Shown here one piece after another: positions 8,600 to 48,070 of a stretch of 49,735 nucleotides of DNA. Both the position numbers and the translations under genes were made by a program. The DNA comes from an uncultured Holophagaceae bacterium (lineage in GTDB: Bacteria > Acidobacteriota > Holophagae > Holophagales > Holophagaceae): the NCBI GenBank assembly GCA_903913215.1, contig CAIWKE010000006.1, forward strand, positions 1 through 49,735. The letters are read 5' to 3'. Below the pieces are notes generated by a model. The model was not told the DNA's origin and did no database searches. It saw only the letters and a program-made list of their open reading frames with translations. Positions within the stretch are counted from its first letter, which is position 1; every line of letters begins with the position of its first letter.

Positions 8600-9178
8600 T
8601 CAGACGGTCAGAGCCTTGGCGCGGTCCTGGCTCTGCTGGAGCACGAGTTCGTGGAGACTGCCGCCGTGGCTGTCCATGGTGACCACCAGGGGGAAGTCCT
8701 CGACTTCGATGATCCAGAAGGCCTCGGGACTGCCGAACTCCTCCAGCATCTTCACATCCACCACGCGCTTCACGCGCTCGGCCAGGAGGCTGCCGGCCCC
8801 GCCCGTGGCATGGAGGTAGACGGCGCCGGTCTTCTGGAGCCCTTCGCTGGTCTTCTTGCCCATGCCGCCCTTGCCGATGACACCACGCACCTTGTAGGTC
8901 TCGATGACGTCCGCTTGGTAGGGCTCCTCGCGGATGCTGGTGGTGGGGCCCGCGGCCACGAAGGACCAGGTGCCGTCCTCGTTCTTCTTCACCACGGGAC
9001 CGCAGTGGTAGATGACCATGTTTTCGAGGATGGGCTTCAGCCACTCGGGCTTCTGCTCTTTCATGAACTTGTGGCCGATGTCGCGGCTGAGGACGACGCG
9101 GCCGTTCAGCAACACCTCATCGCCCACCTTGAGCGTGCGGATCTGTTCCTCGGTGATGGGGGTGGTCAGTCGGATCAT
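8600..9178 (-). CDS. Class I fumarate hydratase, beta subunit (C-terminal domain)
   Basis: 192 residues equivalent to the C-terminal half of the iron-sulfur fumarases FumA/FumB. In the two-subunit form it pairs with the alpha subunit to hydrate fumarate to L-malate in the TCA cycle. Recognisable blocks: LNGRVVLSRDIGHK, YHCGPVVKK, SFVAAGPTTSIRE, VRGVIGKGGMG and FWIIEVEDFPLVVTMDSHG. It starts 7 nt after the alpha gene. A tartrate dehydratase subunit is a formal alternative from the same family; fumarase is favoured as a single-copy housekeeping pair. Confidence 0.9.
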   Translation of the reverse strand: MIRLTTPITEEQIRTLKVGDEVLLNGRVVLSRDIGHKFMKEQKPEWLKPILENMVIYHCGPVVKKNEDGTWSFVAAGPTTSIREEPYQADVIETYKVRGVIGKGGMGKKTSEGLQKTGAVYLHATGGAGSLLAERVKRVVDVKMLEEFGSPEAFWIIEVEDFPLVVTMDSHGGSLHELVLQQSQDRAKALTV

Positions 9179-9185
9179 GGGAGCC

Positions 9186-10169
9186 TCACAGATCGTAGGA
9201 AGGCTGGCTGTTGGCCGCGAGGCTCAGAGTGCCGCGCCGACTGCTCCAGCACATGTAGCTGATGGAGACGTAGAAGCTGGCAGGGTGGCGGTACATCTCC
9301 TCGGCCATGATGCCGAGCACCGTAGTGCTGCCGCCGTAGCCCATGGGGCCGATGCCCAGGGTGTTGAGGTCTTTGGTGAGCTCCTGCTCGAAGGCGTCCA
9401 TCTTGGGGTCGGCGTTGGCCGTGCCCAGCTTGCGCAGGATCAGCTCCTTGCTCTTCTCGTAGCCCGTGACCCGGTCGCCGCCAATGGCCACGCCCAAGAT
9501 CCCGGGGCTGCAGCCCTGGCCCTGGGCCTTCACCACCGCGTCAATGATGCATTTGCGGACACCCTTGATGTCGCGCCCCGCACCCAGTGCAGCGTCCGGC
9601 AGGCGGTACTGGGCCCCCACGTTCTCGCAGCCCCCGCCCTTCTGCATGACTGAGACTTCCACTTCCGGCTTATCCCACTCCTCGAAGTGGATGGCCGGGT
9701 GGTGCTCGTGGAAGGGGTCCATGTTGGTCCCGCTGTTCTTGCCACTCAGAGATTCCACGCAATTGGGGCGAAGCCAGGAGCGTTTGGTCGCTTCGACCAC
9801 TGCAGCACGAATCTGGGCCTTGGTGGCTTTCTGGCTGAGCCCAAAGGGATGGCGCACCCAGAAGATCACGGAGCCTGTGTCCTGGCAGAGGGGGGTCACC
9901 TGGCCATCGGCGAGGTTGATGTTGCGCACCATGTCGTTGAGGGTATTGAAGGCCCGGCTGCCCACTTCCTCGGCGTCGCGCCCCTTCACGATGGCCTGGA
10001 TCACATCCTGGGGCAGGCGACTGGTGGTGCGCCGCAGCAGCTCCATCACGGGCAGTGATAGGTCCAGGTTCTTGAGGTCCGCGAGGTCCGCCTTCCAACC
10101 CGCAGGCAGGACGGACTTGGACGCCACCACCTCGTTGGAGGTCAGGTTGGGAATGACGCACTCAGACAT
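9186..10169 (-). CDS. Class I fumarate hydratase, alpha subunit ([4Fe-4S])
   Basis: 327 residues carrying the labile [4Fe-4S] cluster that acts as Lewis acid in fumarate hydration. Three cysteines fit the cluster ligands: Cys95 in PLCQDTGSVIFW, Cys220 in GQGCSPGILGVAIGGDR and Cys307 in SYMCWSSRRGTL. It forms a translationally tight pair with the beta subunit. ATG is preceded by CCGGAGGACAA, a strong ribosome-binding site. Such oxygen-sensitive fumarases are typical of anaerobes and microaerophiles. Confidence 0.92.
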   Translation of the reverse strand: MSECVIPNLTSNEVVASKSVLPAGWKADLADLKNLDLSLPVMELLRRTTSRLPQDVIQAIVKGRDAEEVGSRAFNTLNDMVRNINLADGQVTPLCQDTGSVIFWVRHPFGLSQKATKAQIRAAVVEATKRSWLRPNCVESLSGKNSGTNMDPFHEHHPAIHFEEWDKPEVEVSVMQKGGGCENVGAQYRLPDAALGAGRDIKGVRKCIIDAVVKAQGQGCSPGILGVAIGGDRVTGYEKSKELILRKLGTANADPKMDAFEQELTKDLNTLGIGPMGYGGSTTVLGIMAEEMYRHPASFYVSISYMCWSSRRGTLSLAANSQPSYDL

Positions 10170-42142: not shown

Positions 42143-43042
42143 ATGGCCCGTCCTCCCGTCCTCCCCGGTCCCCGCCCCGCCTGGTTGAAGATCCGCGTCC
42201 CAGCCCCGGAAGTGGTGGCCGAGGTCGAGGGCCTCATGCGGGAGCAGCGCCTCGTCACGGTCTGCGAGGAGGCCCGCTGCCCCAACCTCCATGAGTGCTG
42301 GGGGGTGCACCGCACGGCGACCTTCATGCTCCTGGGCGACATCTGCACTCGCCACTGCGGGTTCTGCAATGTGGGCAAGGGCCGCCCCGGCGCGCTGGAC
42401 CCAGGAGAGCCTCAGCGGGTGGCCGAGGCCGTGGCCCGGCTGGGCCTGCGTTTCGCCGTGGTCACTTCCGTCAACCGCGACGACCTGCCAGACGGCGGCG
42501 CCGACCACTTTGCCAAGACCATCCAATGGATCCGCAGCCTCTCTCCCCACTGCGGCGTGGAGGTGCTCATCCCCGACTTCCGGGGCCGGGAGGCGGACTT
42601 GCTCACCGTGCTGGAAGCCCGCCCCGATGTGCTCAACCACAACGTGGAGACCGTGGCTCATCTCTACCGGCGGGTGCGGCCCGATGCGGACTATGCCCAG
42701 AGCCTGGAGCTGCTGCGCCGCGCCGCCCAGTGGCGGGACCAGCATGCACCCGGACTGAAGGTGAAGAGCGGGATCATGGTGGGCCTGGGCGAGACCCCGG
42801 AACAAGTGCTCGAGCTCATGGGCCACTGGCGGGAGAGTCGCGTGGACATCGCCACCATCGGCCAGTATCTTCCACCTTCGGCCCTGCACCTGCCCCTGGA
42901 CCGTTACGTGGAACCTGCAGAGTTCGATAGCTACCGCCTACGAGGCCTAGAGATGGGCTTCCTGCGGGTGGAGTCTGCGCCCCTGGTGCGCTCCAGCTAC
43001 CATGCCGGAGATGGCTTCGGAAAAGGAATCGGGGGCAGCTAG
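42143..43042 (+). CDS. lipA: Lipoyl synthase LipA
   Basis: 299 residues. A radical-SAM enzyme that inserts two sulfurs into octanoyl groups on lipoyl domains. The auxiliary cluster motif CEEARCPNLHEC and the radical-SAM CTRHCGFCNVGKG (CxxxCxxC) are both present, with EVLIPDFRGRE, NHNVETVAHLYRRVRPDADY and the C-terminal VRSSYHAGD. ATG 42143 is the only good start; an upstream frame is not conserved. The stop codon sits inside a 22-bp palindrome. The next gene, on the opposite strand, encodes a GcvH-like domain, probably a coincidence. Confidence 0.95.
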   Translation: MARPPVLPGPRPAWLKIRVPAPEVVAEVEGLMREQRLVTVCEEARCPNLHECWGVHRTATFMLLGDICTRHCGFCNVGKGRPGALDPGEPQRVAEAVARLGLRFAVVTSVNRDDLPDGGADHFAKTIQWIRSLSPHCGVEVLIPDFRGREADLLTVLEARPDVLNHNVETVAHLYRRVRPDADYAQSLELLRRAAQWRDQHAPGLKVKSGIMVGLGETPEQVLELMGHWRESRVDIATIGQYLPPSALHLPLDRYVEPAEFDSYRLRGLEMGFLRVESAPLVRSSYHAGDGFGKGIGGS

Positions 43043-43075: not shown

Positions 43076-44197
43076 TCAGGCGTGGGCGGCAGTCTTGGCG
43101 CCCAGGAACTGCTGCTCGAAAGCACTCCAGTCCAGGCTACCCGTGGCCTGGGGCCCGTTTTCAGCCCGCAGGCGGGTTATCTCGTCCTGGTACCAGTCGA
43201 TGACGGGCTGGCCGATCTTCAGGGTGGACAGTTCCCCAGCCAGATCGCTGGGAGTCAGCAGGCAGACCCAGCCGCGGTCGTAGGGGCTGTGGGTCAGCTC
43301 GCCAGGATTTGACACCAGACTGCCATTGTCATGATCCACCTTCCCAGACATGGGGGAGGCCACCTGCACGGTGCCAGTGGCGCCCTTGAGGGTGAAGAGC
43401 GTGTCGCCCCGCTTGATGACAGTGCCCCGCTGGGGCAGGGTCACGCTGGTGATCGTGCCCAGCGCCTTGCGGATGAAGTCATCGATGCCGATGCGGACCT
43501 GGCCCTCGGGCTCGATGCGCACCCAGGCGTGGCCGGGGGAGATGAAGGCTCCGCCGGGAACGCAGAACTCGCCACTGGGGATCACATCGGCCATCTCAGG
43601 AGCCACCACACGGACACTGGGGCGCTTGGCGGCCTCGATGCGCGCCTGACGCTTAATGAGCAGCTTCTTGGCGAACTCTCCCAACTCGTCCGCGGTGAAG
43701 GGCTTCTGCACGTATTCGCAGGCGCCGAACTGGAGCGCCTGGACGGCGGTCTCGATGCTGCCATAGCCGGTGATGACGACCACGTCCACGTCCGGGCGCA
43801 GGTGCTTCACGGCCTTCACCACGTCCACGCCGTCCATGTCGGGCATCTTGAGGTCGGTGAAGAGGAAGTCATAGTCATGGCGCTGCACCAGACCCAGGGC
43901 CTCGGGTCCGTGCTCGACGGTATCCACACTGAAGCCTTCCAAAACCAGGATGCGTCGGAAGGAATCCAGCACCACACCCTCATCGTCCACGGCCAGGATG
44001 CGGGCCTTGGGATTGGGCACTTCGACCCGCTTGAGGCTCTTGGCCTCGTGGGTGAAGTCCAGGCGAATGGAGGTATTCAGCACGGCCTCGCGGGCCTCGC
44101 GCTCCTGCTTCTCACGGGCCTTGCGCAGGGTCGTCCGAACCAGGTAGTCCGTGCCGACAAAGGCCAGGAACATGAAGAGAATCAGCACGGCGGTCAT
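43076..44197 (-). CDS. Membrane-tethered receiver protein with GcvH-like output domain (no lipoyl lysine)
   Basis: 373 residues. An N-terminal membrane helix (VLILFMFLAFVGTDYLV) and charged linker are followed by a receiver domain (ILAVDDEGVVLDSFRRILVL; phospho-acceptor Asp115 in FTDLKMPDMDG; QKPF Lys165). A domain aligning residue by residue with the glycine-cleavage H protein comes next (GHAWVRIEPEGQVRIGIDDF, IKRGDTLFTLKGATGTVQVA, SPMSGKVDHDNG, SPYDRGWVCLLTPSD). The lipoylated lysine of GcvH is Thr (residue 274). No DNA-binding output is present. ATG 44197 has AGGAGG overlapping the kinase stop, so the two are coupled. Confidence 0.85.
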   Translation of the reverse strand: MTAVLILFMFLAFVGTDYLVRTTLRKAREKQEREAREAVLNTSIRLDFTHEAKSLKRVEVPNPKARILAVDDEGVVLDSFRRILVLEGFSVDTVEHGPEALGLVQRHDYDFLFTDLKMPDMDGVDVVKAVKHLRPDVDVVVITGYGSIETAVQALQFGACEYVQKPFTADELGEFAKKLLIKRQARIEAAKRPSVRVVAPEMADVIPSGEFCVPGGAFISPGHAWVRIEPEGQVRIGIDDFIRKALGTITSVTLPQRGTVIKRGDTLFTLKGATGTVQVASPMSGKVDHDNGSLVSNPGELTHSPYDRGWVCLLTPSDLAGELSTLKIGQPVIDWYQDEITRLRAENGPQATGSLDWSAFEQQFLGAKTAAHA

Positions 44198-44206
44198 GAC
44201 CACCTC

Positions 44207-45733
<1,527 letters not shown>

Positions 45734-45788: not shown

Positions 45789-45855
45789 GAAGGATCCACC
45801 CTGCCTGAAGCATAGTCAACCCAAAGGTGTTTAATTATTGAGGCCGATGTTGTCA
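45789..45855 (-). promoter_or_regulatory. Shared regulatory element, copy A (before the kinase gene)
   Basis: Minus strand: TGACAACA, 22 nt, CCTTTGGG, TTGACTATGCT, then GGATCCTTC. The same arrangement recurs upstream of the ferredoxin gene. TTGACT-N17-GATCCT can be read as -35/-10, or TATGCT as an activator-dependent -10 with TGACAACA near -45. It lies entirely in the gap between the nrfD stop and the kinase start. Confidence 0.6.
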
Positions 45856-45858
45856 TTT

Positions 45859-46992
45859 TCAAGAATGCGTGGATGTGGCATTGGTCGGCGCGAAGATGGG
45901 CAGGTACCGGGCAATCAGGGTGAAGGCAGTGAAGCCGATGGCCGCGATGCCGGTGGTGATGAGGATTTCCATCAGGGAGGGGAAGTAGGTCTGGGAGGGC
46001 CAGGTCTCCATGCCCGTGATGGCAGTGTTCATGCGGTTGGCCGCGAAGCCAGCCAGCACCAGGAGGGCCGACAGGTAGAGGCCCCTCCGAGAGAAGCGGA
46101 CGCGCTCGAACATGAGGAGGATGAAAGGCACCACGAAGCCGATGAGGATCTCGGCCCAGAAGGCGAGGCTGTGGTAGCTGAGGGTCCGCATTTCATGCCA
46201 GGCGCCCCGGGAAAGGAGATCCTGAATACGCACCACCAGGTAGATGGCGAGGGCCACGGCGCTCATCTTGGCCAGGTTGGCCATCAGGACCGGGGACAGG
46301 AGGACGCGGCCGTTCCGGGACAGGATGAGGGTCTCCACAATGACCATGGAGATGCCCGAAGCGATGCAGGAGATGAAAAAGAGCACCGGCAGCAGCGGCG
46401 TGTACCAGAGGGCGTGCAGGCGGGTGGGGACGATCAGGTAGAGGGAGCCGAAGGAGGACTGGTGCAGCGTGGACAGCAGCACCCCCACGATCATGAAGGG
46501 CAGCGAGACGTTGTGGATCATCTTGATGGGCGCATGCATGTTGAACTTCTCAAGCACGATGGGCGCGAATTCCAGGCTCAGCACCGTGGTGTAGAGGATG
46601 ACGCACCAGGTGATCTCGAACATGACGGAATGGGGGTTCCACATCACCAGTGGGTGCCAGAAGTTTTCGGGGCGGCCGAGGTCGATGACCAGCACCAGCA
46701 CCACCAGCAGGTAGCCGATGAAAGCCGTGAGAATGGCGGGCCGGACAATGGGTTCGTACTCGTGGGCGTGAAAGAGGTTCACGGCGGCCACGATGGTGAA
46801 GCCCGCCGCGGCGAGGCCGATGCCTAGGAAGTCGAAGCCGATCCAGAGGCCCCAGGGGAAGAGGTCGTTGAGGTGCGTGGTGGCACCCAGGCCCAGGCGG
46901 AACCGGGCGATGGCTGAGACCACGCCCGCTCCGATCAGTAGGATGGCGATGACCTTCCAGACGGTGATGCGGAAGATGGGATAGGGTTTCAT
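45859..46992 (-). CDS. NrfD/HybB-like quinone-interacting membrane subunit
   Basis: 377 residues with about ten membrane helices (from FRITVWKVIAILLIGAGVVS to ILITTGIAAIGFTAFTLIAR). PWGLWIGFDFLGIGLAAAGF and LVLVIDLGRPENFWHPLVMW match the NrfD/PsrC/HybB family, which exchanges electrons between an iron-sulfur partner and the quinone pool. The start is ATG at 46992, overlapping the ferredoxin stop by one base (TGATG). Length is close to HybB. No catalytic subunit is encoded nearby. Confidence 0.9.
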   Translation of the reverse strand: MKPYPIFRITVWKVIAILLIGAGVVSAIARFRLGLGATTHLNDLFPWGLWIGFDFLGIGLAAAGFTIVAAVNLFHAHEYEPIVRPAILTAFIGYLLVVLVLVIDLGRPENFWHPLVMWNPHSVMFEITWCVILYTTVLSLEFAPIVLEKFNMHAPIKMIHNVSLPFMIVGVLLSTLHQSSFGSLYLIVPTRLHALWYTPLLPVLFFISCIASGISMVIVETLILSRNGRVLLSPVLMANLAKMSAVALAIYLVVRIQDLLSRGAWHEMRTLSYHSLAFWAEILIGFVVPFILLMFERVRFSRRGLYLSALLVLAGFAANRMNTAITGMETWPSQTYFPSLMEILITTGIAAIGFTAFTLIARYLPIFAPTNATSTHS

Positions 46993-47762
46993 CACTTGTC
47001 CTCGTTCTGGGAATGCCCGTTCTGCTTCTGGGAGGCTTCGTACTGCTGCACTTCGGCACGCCGGTTCGTGATCCACCAGATGCCTGCCAGCAGGACGCTC
47101 CCTACCGTGACCACGTTGGGAATCTTGGACATTGCGTTGTTGGTCAGCAGGGGCATGGGGAACTTGTCCAGCCGGGTATCGAAGCCCAGCTTCTCGAAGG
47201 GCACGTGGGTGATGTAAAGGATCGAGGTGCCACCGACGGTGTCGCTGCCGTAGATCCTTGCCACGTACTTGTCCGGCTCCGCCTCGATGCGGCCCGCGGC
47301 TTCTTCAAGCAGCTCGCTCCGGATCCCAAACTTCGTGGCTCCCGTGGGGCAGGCCTCGGCACATGCGGGCTGCAGCCCCTTCGCGAGCCGCGGTGCACAG
47401 AAAATGCACTTCTGTACCCTGGGCTTGGTGCTGGCCCACTCGTAGCGGGGGGCCCGGAAGGGGCAGGCCTGCATGCAGTAGCGGCAACCGATGCACTTGT
47501 TGGCGTCATAGAGAACGGGGCCTTCGGCGGTCTTGGTGAAGGCTGCCACGGGGCAAACGGACACGCAGGTGGGCACTTCGCAGTGCTGGCACATATGGCG
47601 GACGAAGACCCCATCGTGCTCGCTCAGGGCTGTATAAGCAGTCGGTGAGAGGCGCTTCTCCTCCCCAGTCGCGAGCTTATTCTCAACCTTGCACCCGTCC
47701 TGGCAGGCGTTGCAGCCGATGCATTGCGTGATATCGATCAACATCGCTTTTTTTTGATTCAT
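46992..47762 (-). CDS. HybA-like ferredoxin with four [4Fe-4S] sites and a C-terminal membrane anchor
   Basis: 256 residues. Four cysteine clusters: CIGCNACQDGC, CQHCEVPTCVSVC, CIGCRYCMQAC and CIFC...CAEAC, the DMSO reductase B/HybA pattern. A C-terminal hydrophobic helix (VVTVGSVLLAGIWWITN) anchors it. No Tat or Sec signal is present, so location depends on a partner. ATG has GGAG 6-7 nt upstream. Codons 3-5 form a run of eight A bases. It is coupled to the nrfD gene and preceded by a 250-nt leader and element B. Confidence 0.92.
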   Translation of the reverse strand: MNQKKAMLIDITQCIGCNACQDGCKVENKLATGEEKRLSPTAYTALSEHDGVFVRHMCQHCEVPTCVSVCPVAAFTKTAEGPVLYDANKCIGCRYCMQACPFRAPRYEWASTKPRVQKCIFCAPRLAKGLQPACAEACPTGATKFGIRSELLEEAAGRIEAEPDKYVARIYGSDTVGGTSILYITHVPFEKLGFDTRLDKFPMPLLTNNAMSKIPNVVTVGSVLLAGIWWITNRRAEVQQYEASQKQNGHSQNEDK

Positions 47763-48004: not shown

Positions 48005-48070
48005 GAAGCATCCGCCTCGCGGCGAGCATAGTCAACCCTTTGGTAGCAATTAAAAATGACTTTGTTGTCA
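48005..48070 (-). promoter_or_regulatory. Shared regulatory element, copy B (before the ferredoxin operon)
   Basis: Minus strand: TGACAACA, 21 nt, CCAAAGGG, TTGACTATGCT, then GGATGCTTC. It is aligned with copy A at 45789-45855 over about 66 bp, with identical TGACAACA and GGGTTGACTATGCT blocks. TGACAACAAAGTCA also contains a TGAC-N6-GTCA inverted repeat here, which copy A lacks. Confidence 0.6.

Follow-up and report, generated by a model that had tools for sequence, protein, structure and literature searches.

A membrane-anchored receiver with a lysine-less GcvH-like domain, encoded beside a putative haem kinase and a HybA–NrfD pair, as a candidate regulator of a quinone module

Most response regulators have DNA, second messengers or the flagellar motor as their targets. 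What, then, might be the target of a response regulator that is predicted to sit in the membrane and that carries a GcvH-like domain as its output? The question is raised by a gene in a 49,735-nt stretch of a contig from an uncultured Holophagaceae bacterium (CAIWKE010000006.1; the whole stretch is referred to here as the window), the relevant features of which are listed in Table 1. The answer that we favour, and to which we give a probability of about one half, is that the neighbouring haem kinase phosphorylates this membrane H-like subunit, which would then tune the HybA–NrfD quinone module by contact. The original prediction, made from the sequence of the window, stated that no role is known to have been described for a receiver joined to GcvH, and this agrees with the literature searched (which took in few subscription papers), where neither a receiver–GcvH protein nor a GcvH with NrfD or HybA was found to be described; the main text of a survey of response-regulator domains (PMC4558063) contains neither ‘GcvH’ nor ‘glycine’.

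Table 1. Positions in the window of the genes, domains and motifs discussed in the text.
Feature	Position	Strand	Remarks
lipA	42143..43042	(+)	convergent neighbour; taken as synteny of nearer relatives, outside the system
Membrane-anchored receiver–GcvH-like protein	43076..44197	(-)	373 aa from ATG 44197; 375 aa from GTG 44203
Lysine-less GcvH-like domain	43169..43570	(-)	lipoyl-site position is Thr276, codon 43376-43378
Receiver domain	43658..44002	(-)	Pfam and invariant residues; phospho-acceptor D117, codon 43853-43855
N-terminal membrane helix, then Arg/Lys-rich stretch	44138..44203	(-)	topology predicted (hydropathy, positive-inside rule)
Membrane histidine kinase	44207..45733	(-)	periplasmic sensor with CYACH (45380-45394) and CSTADCH (45245-45265), putative c-haem motifs
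Promoter-like motif GGGTTGACTATGCT	45809..45822	(-)	upstream of the kinase–regulator pair
NrfD/HybB/HmcC-type integral membrane quinone subunit	45859..46992	(-)	
HybA/HmcB-type iron-sulfur protein	46992..47762	(-)	hydrophobic C-tail; no Tat motif before first cluster motif
Same promoter-like motif	48025..48038	(-)	upstream of HybA–NrfD

The start codon assumed in the original prediction, ATG 44197, is preferable to GTG 44203, as AGGAGG lies just upstream of it and 10 of 16 relatives have an MTA start. The joining of receiver, GcvH fold and membrane anchor in one protein was borne out by Pfam, by the predicted fold and by hydropathy: the N-terminal helix is single and hydrophobic (mean hydropathy 2.15 across 19 residues), the C-terminal part is predicted by the positive-inside rule to be cytoplasmic, and the receiver (Pfam Response_reg, residues 69-175, E 3.9e-28, well above the Pfam cut-off) has an intact pocket in which D73, D74, E75, D117, T145 and K167 are invariant among 17 aligned sequences. 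The nearest named relatives belong to Geothrix and other Holophagaceae. By its receiver the protein is a two-component response regulator, and gene adjacency suggests phosphorylation by the neighbouring kinase, whose gene lies directly before it in transcription order and is itself preceded by NrfD and the HybA-like gene. A Pfam scan of the protein found no DNA-binding domain and no catalytic domain, and no further receiver adjoins the kinase in the window, both of which would fit a phosphate sink or kinase anchor without effector function of its own; we consider this very improbable, however, as conservation of the GcvH-like domain extends to distant relatives and its link with NrfD holds even where there is no receiver.

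The output domain is matched by Pfam GCV_H (PF01597) at residues 225-324 (E 1.3e-17, 64.2 bits against a cut-off of 22.2). It had been predicted to align with GcvH without gaps and to have lost the lipoylated lysine, and both points hold against the genome's own GcvH (L080), a separate and ordinary protein in which the lysine is present: the gap-free alignment runs from GHAWVRIE to CLLT with 24 of 94 residues identical, and KGATGTV lies over ESVKTVS, so that the lysine is replaced by Thr276. AlphaFold2 gave a mean pLDDT of 82.8 for the whole protein and 89.7 for the GcvH-like domain alone, Foldseek matched the predicted model to the H-protein fold with E-values from 2e-12, and comparison with the E. 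coli apo-H-protein (3a7l) gave a Z-score of 22.2 and an rmsd of 1.1 Å with 128 of 128 residues aligned, which is a GcvH fold. On the sequence and this model the domain is thus an H-protein by fold and, by the defining lysine, not a functional GcvH. It has the whole GcvH fold and about 25–31% identity, but differs from GcvH in having no lipoyl lysine, in its fusion to a receiver and a membrane anchor and in falling below the cut-offs of the NCBIfam GcvH models (59.6 of 115.85 and 61.7 of 117 bits). GcvH-like proteins that are tied to a redox system and not to glycine cleavage are represented by the LbpA lipoate-binding proteins of the sHdr sulfur pathway; as presented in the text of PMC6067878, the lysine is common to all 95 of the LbpA sequences aligned, whereas it is lost in the window's family, and the partners differ.

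The retention of the H-protein fold, together with the presence of lipA nearby in 38 of the 48 loci L001-L048, might be taken to mean that the pseudo-H-protein acts on lipoylation or glycine cleavage by competing with GcvH for LipA, the ligase, GcvT or GcvP. This we regard as highly improbable: no match to lipA was obtained in L037-L042, L044, L045, L047, L092-L111 or L127-L186, and no other glycine-cleavage component was found among the five window proteins scanned. A link to lipoate metabolism through lipA was accordingly set aside as synteny.

The loss of the lysine is a property of the whole lysine-less family, which consists of long GcvH-like proteins that are mostly membrane-anchored or receiver-fused. 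The original prediction had asked whether the lysine is always lost in receiver–GcvH proteins, and in these the motif [ED][SA]xK occurs in none of 85 distinct domains (0/52 from membrane-anchored receiver forms and 0/33 from soluble receiver forms, where the membrane class is defined by a hydropathy cut-off and contigs cut at the gene start, L036 and L046, are counted as soluble). It is likewise absent from all 43 distinct membrane forms that have no receiver and present in 32 of 32 distinct short GcvH proteins, and among other long frames it is kept in 1 of 14, itself an ordinary GcvH encoded in a long frame, giving 1 in 142 distinct long domains overall; in a few rows, at places of uncertain alignment, a lysine stands in or beside the lipoyl column but the motif is missing. 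Long-frame ordinary GcvH proteins that keep the lysine (L136, L153, L154, L156 and L199-L207) were dropped from the lysine-less list. In a tree built from few columns, one branch splits lysine-less from ordinary rows (support 94, not starred) and the membrane receiver group falls inside the lysine-less side (support 86, not starred).

A profile search of 247 Acidobacteriota genomes brought out many membrane-anchored lysine-less GcvH proteins that have no receiver, mostly of about 220–310 residues and also bearing the conserved C-terminal tail, and these widen the finding beyond the receiver-fused form of the original prediction. Eight such relatives match NCBIfam TIGR03077 (‘not_gcvH’) and NF045810 (‘GcvH_rel_desulf’) weakly, with scores that fall far short of the cut-offs: no more than 40.2 bits for the first (cut-off 144) and 47 bits for the second (cut-off 150). 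Receiver-fused membrane forms are also found in a Spirochaetia MAG and a Gammaproteobacteria MAG, each of which has a second, soluble receiver–GcvH; no more receiver-fused forms came to light at E <= 1e-24 and 1e-25 among 149 and 299 genomes sampled from the phyla of these two MAGs. Three lysine-less GcvH proteins (L102, L103 and L107) have a Cys-rich N-terminal part, and in L103 and L107 they lie near a kinase and a receiver protein, the L103 kinase having an N-terminus that looks ferredoxin-like by eye.

The original prediction had also proposed a test of whether receiver–GcvH fusions always co-occur with haem kinases and HybA/NrfD genes. HybA and NrfD are both present in 38 of the 48 loci L001-L048; of the ten loci without the pair, nine have less than 4 kb of upstream DNA and the other is L045. 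In two further sets of Acidobacteriota loci the pair is present in 9 of 20 and in 17 of 30, the second set including four loci with an ordinary GcvH only, while the pair was found beside ordinary gcvH in 0 of 20 control loci. The recurrence of the association thus stands, with its gcvH control, but it is not general, as soluble receiver–GcvH proteins in Nitrospirota have other neighbours. Across the 247 Acidobacteriota genomes, 57 have both a lysine-less GcvH-like protein and an HmcC/HybB-type NrfD, 6 the GcvH-like protein alone, 12 NrfD alone and 172 neither (Fisher, 8e-37), that is, NrfD in 57 of 63 genomes with the GcvH-like family against 12 of 184 without, at cut-offs that were set after the lists had been seen (GcvH-like, E <= 1e-23 and a frame of at least 180; NrfD, E <= 1e-120). 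The corresponding figures are 36, 6, 12 and 171 when the window's own family is removed and 59, 4, 19 and 165 with NrfD at E <= 1e-100, although it should be noted that many of the loci and genomes counted are close relatives and are not independent events. Genome G124 (GcvH-like, 4e-21) was added to the holders after its sequence was read, and four genomes with soluble receiver–GcvH proteins (G162, G194, G016 and G154) were left out of them; sequence was fetched for 52 of the 63 holders, the other 11, all of the window's family, being assigned by score alone. As GcvH-like matches were listed to E of about 1e-20, weak members may be missing and some of the genomes with NrfD only may hold one.

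Outside L001-L048, 20 of the 46 Acidobacteriota loci with a lysine-less protein show no HybA–NrfD pair in the DNA retrieved, which was short for some of them, and this counts against our preferred reading. In five genomes (G132, G078, G207, G239 and G029) the GcvH-like gene stood without the pair in the first stretch, and a pair was present either at another place in the genome or beyond that stretch on the same contig. Three holders (G022, G035 and G048) gave no match to NrfD at E <= 1e-50. A second, solitary membrane receiver–GcvH gene (L045:7992-9125) comes from the same MAG as L042, with no kinase and no HybA–NrfD matched in its locus.

The window's HybA and NrfD are 80 and 79% identical to those of L005 and 70 and 76% identical to those of L042, and 36 of 38 HybA and 38 of 40 NrfD sequences compared are 52% or less identical to the window's. 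The receiver, by comparison, is 93–95% and the GcvH-like domain 76–77% identical to those of both L005 and L002, the latter of which has the other HybA/NrfD type. The pair in the window (45859-47762) belongs to a subfamily other than that of most Geothrix relatives and was apparently exchanged in place, and as HybA and NrfD diverge while the receiver and GcvH-like domains are conserved, the association has outlived a change of partner. Two observations on NrfD neighbourhoods in relatives may be added: the gap between NrfD and the kinase in L013 (6186-6470) resembles, by eye, a small insertion bounded by inverted terminal repeats, and the NrfD frames at L135:8468-10042 and L140:8426-10102 have three CxxCH motifs, perhaps representing a fusion of NrfD with a tri-haem part.

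Within the window the two gene pairs share a promoter-like motif. Its exact form, ACCNNNGGGTTGACTATG, has just two occurrences in the 3.9-Mb assembly, one ahead of HybA and one ahead of the kinase. In 31 of 38 related loci the DNA upstream of HybA contains a looser form, the pattern for which admitted a loose 10-base core; allowing up to two mismatches gave 6 matches against 12 for the reversed pattern, and as this search was no better than the reversed pattern the two exact occurrences alone were used.

Two c-haem motifs, CxxCH and Cx4CH, are present in 84 of 91 distinct sensors, and also in that of the window. The company kept by these kinases differs with the form of the GcvH-like protein. 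Where the GcvH-like proteins of a kinase locus lack a receiver, 18 of 18 loci encode a receiver protein that has a GAFTGA-type (sigma-54 activator) motif, in 16 directly beside the kinase, whereas in loci with the receiver-fused form the receiver–GcvH gene adjoins the kinase in 45 of 45 and a GAFTGA-type regulator is in the locus in 1 of 45 (short or repeated loci, L080-L091, L112-L126 and L187-L194, were left out of this count, and any receiver frame with a GAFTGA-type motif was taken as a sigma-54-type regulator). This contrast suggests that one kinase family is wired either to transcription or straight to a membrane H-like protein, although many of the 45 loci are close kin and the exchange of outputs is a pattern of few events.

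In the two-component system that we propose, the output would be a membrane-tethered ‘pseudo-H-protein’. The kinase would sense the redox or ligand state of the periplasm with two c-haems, presumed to be attached at its motifs, and would pass phosphate within the pair to D117 of the receiver, and phosphorylation may then bring the GcvH-like domain into another position or oligomeric state. Unable to carry lipoate at the usual site, this domain could act as a docking module on the cytoplasmic face of HybA–NrfD, in contact with NrfD or its complex, and docking would adjust electron transfer or the assembly of HybA–NrfD. The original prediction had likewise suggested signalling by protein contact, perhaps to the NrfD/ferredoxin module. 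Contact with the ferredoxin as a general rule is less likely, because 13 of 64 HybA-like partners bear a Tat-type motif and would be periplasmic, and a cytoplasmic HybA as general contact partner was weakened as a candidate for the same reason, which leaves NrfD as the common candidate. Tail-anchored ferredoxin/NrfD-type quinol oxidase modules have been described that include a variant without signal peptide, probably exported with its partner (PMC10924467), so a missing signal is no proof of a cytoplasmic place. These modules are of the same gene-pair type as that in the window, but no kinase or GcvH-like protein is mentioned with them and ‘GcvH’ is absent from the main text of that paper.

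A further system for comparison is the Hmc complex of Desulfovibrio, one regulator of which, Rrf1, is a lone receiver. The complex consists of HmcA-F, with rrf1/rrf2 as regulators of hmc expression, according to the text of PMC10924467. The window resembles this system in its HmcB/HmcC-type pair, and in one relative (L106) the anchor scores 34.0 bits with the NCBIfam model of the Hmc subunit HmcD, just reaching its cut-off of 34; the window proteins, however, fall under the HmcB (245.2 of 420 bits) and HmcC (263.1 of 550 bits) cut-offs. No HmcE or HmcF was found among the five window proteins scanned, and no frame of at least 80 aa in the window has more than one CxxCH, as a multihaem HmcA would, though a distant gene is possible; a multihaem frame lies within 6 kb in 2 of the 37 HybA rows of the membrane receiver group. 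HmcD was also tried as an identity for the window's own anchor, which gave no match.

The Hmc resemblance hints at a subunit-like role, and it is here that the strongest competing explanation arises, namely that the lysine-less H-like proteins are permanent accessory subunits of the HmcD kind, by which a cytoplasmic electron partner is kept on the HybA–NrfD complex, with the receiver mainly placing the kinase at the complex or setting its assembly. Besides the L106 anchor, it would account for the two or three paralogues found in several clusters and for the 42 holder genomes outside the window's family, of which 39 have the receiver-less form and three the receiver-fused membrane form, and which still track NrfD. 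The invariant receiver residues, and the fused receiver standing in for a separate regulator, point instead to regulated use, and we think a purely structural role rather unlikely.

If phospho-dependent tuning of HybA–NrfD is correct, a two-component system controls respiration directly and post-translationally, through a dead carrier protein on a quinone module, and this would offer a handle on the tuning of electron flow in Geothrix-like bacteria. The lysine-less GcvH branch, members of which may well go under the name of glycine cleavage protein H in automatic annotation, would also gain a testable role. A broader and tentative proposal, in which our confidence is lower, is that lysine-less membrane-anchored H-proteins form an unrecognised class of HybA–NrfD subunit in Acidobacteriota, that receiver fusion turned haem sensing that acted on transcription into direct phospho-gating of respiratory electron flow, and that Nitrospirota might use the same trick on a NuoEF/formate-dehydrogenase-like complex, with receivers on the H-like protein and on NuoE.

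The Nitrospirota receiver–GcvH proteins are soluble and have as neighbours a receiver–NuoE fusion (in 27 of 28 loci), NuoF (25) and an FdhA-like gene (22), not HybA/NrfD; as L058 and L177 are the same contig and L075 and L077 encode the same protein, the set comprises 26 distinct proteins. The presence of receiver–GcvH beside a different complex counts against our preferred reading as it stands for HybA–NrfD. Because these loci pair receiver–GcvH with receiver–NuoE, NuoF and the FdhA-like gene, the common theme is the placing of a receiver on parts of electron-transfer complexes. In L058 the frame at 8815-9741, beside the receiver–GcvH gene, encodes a receiver fused to a NuoE-type 2Fe-2S thioredoxin domain.
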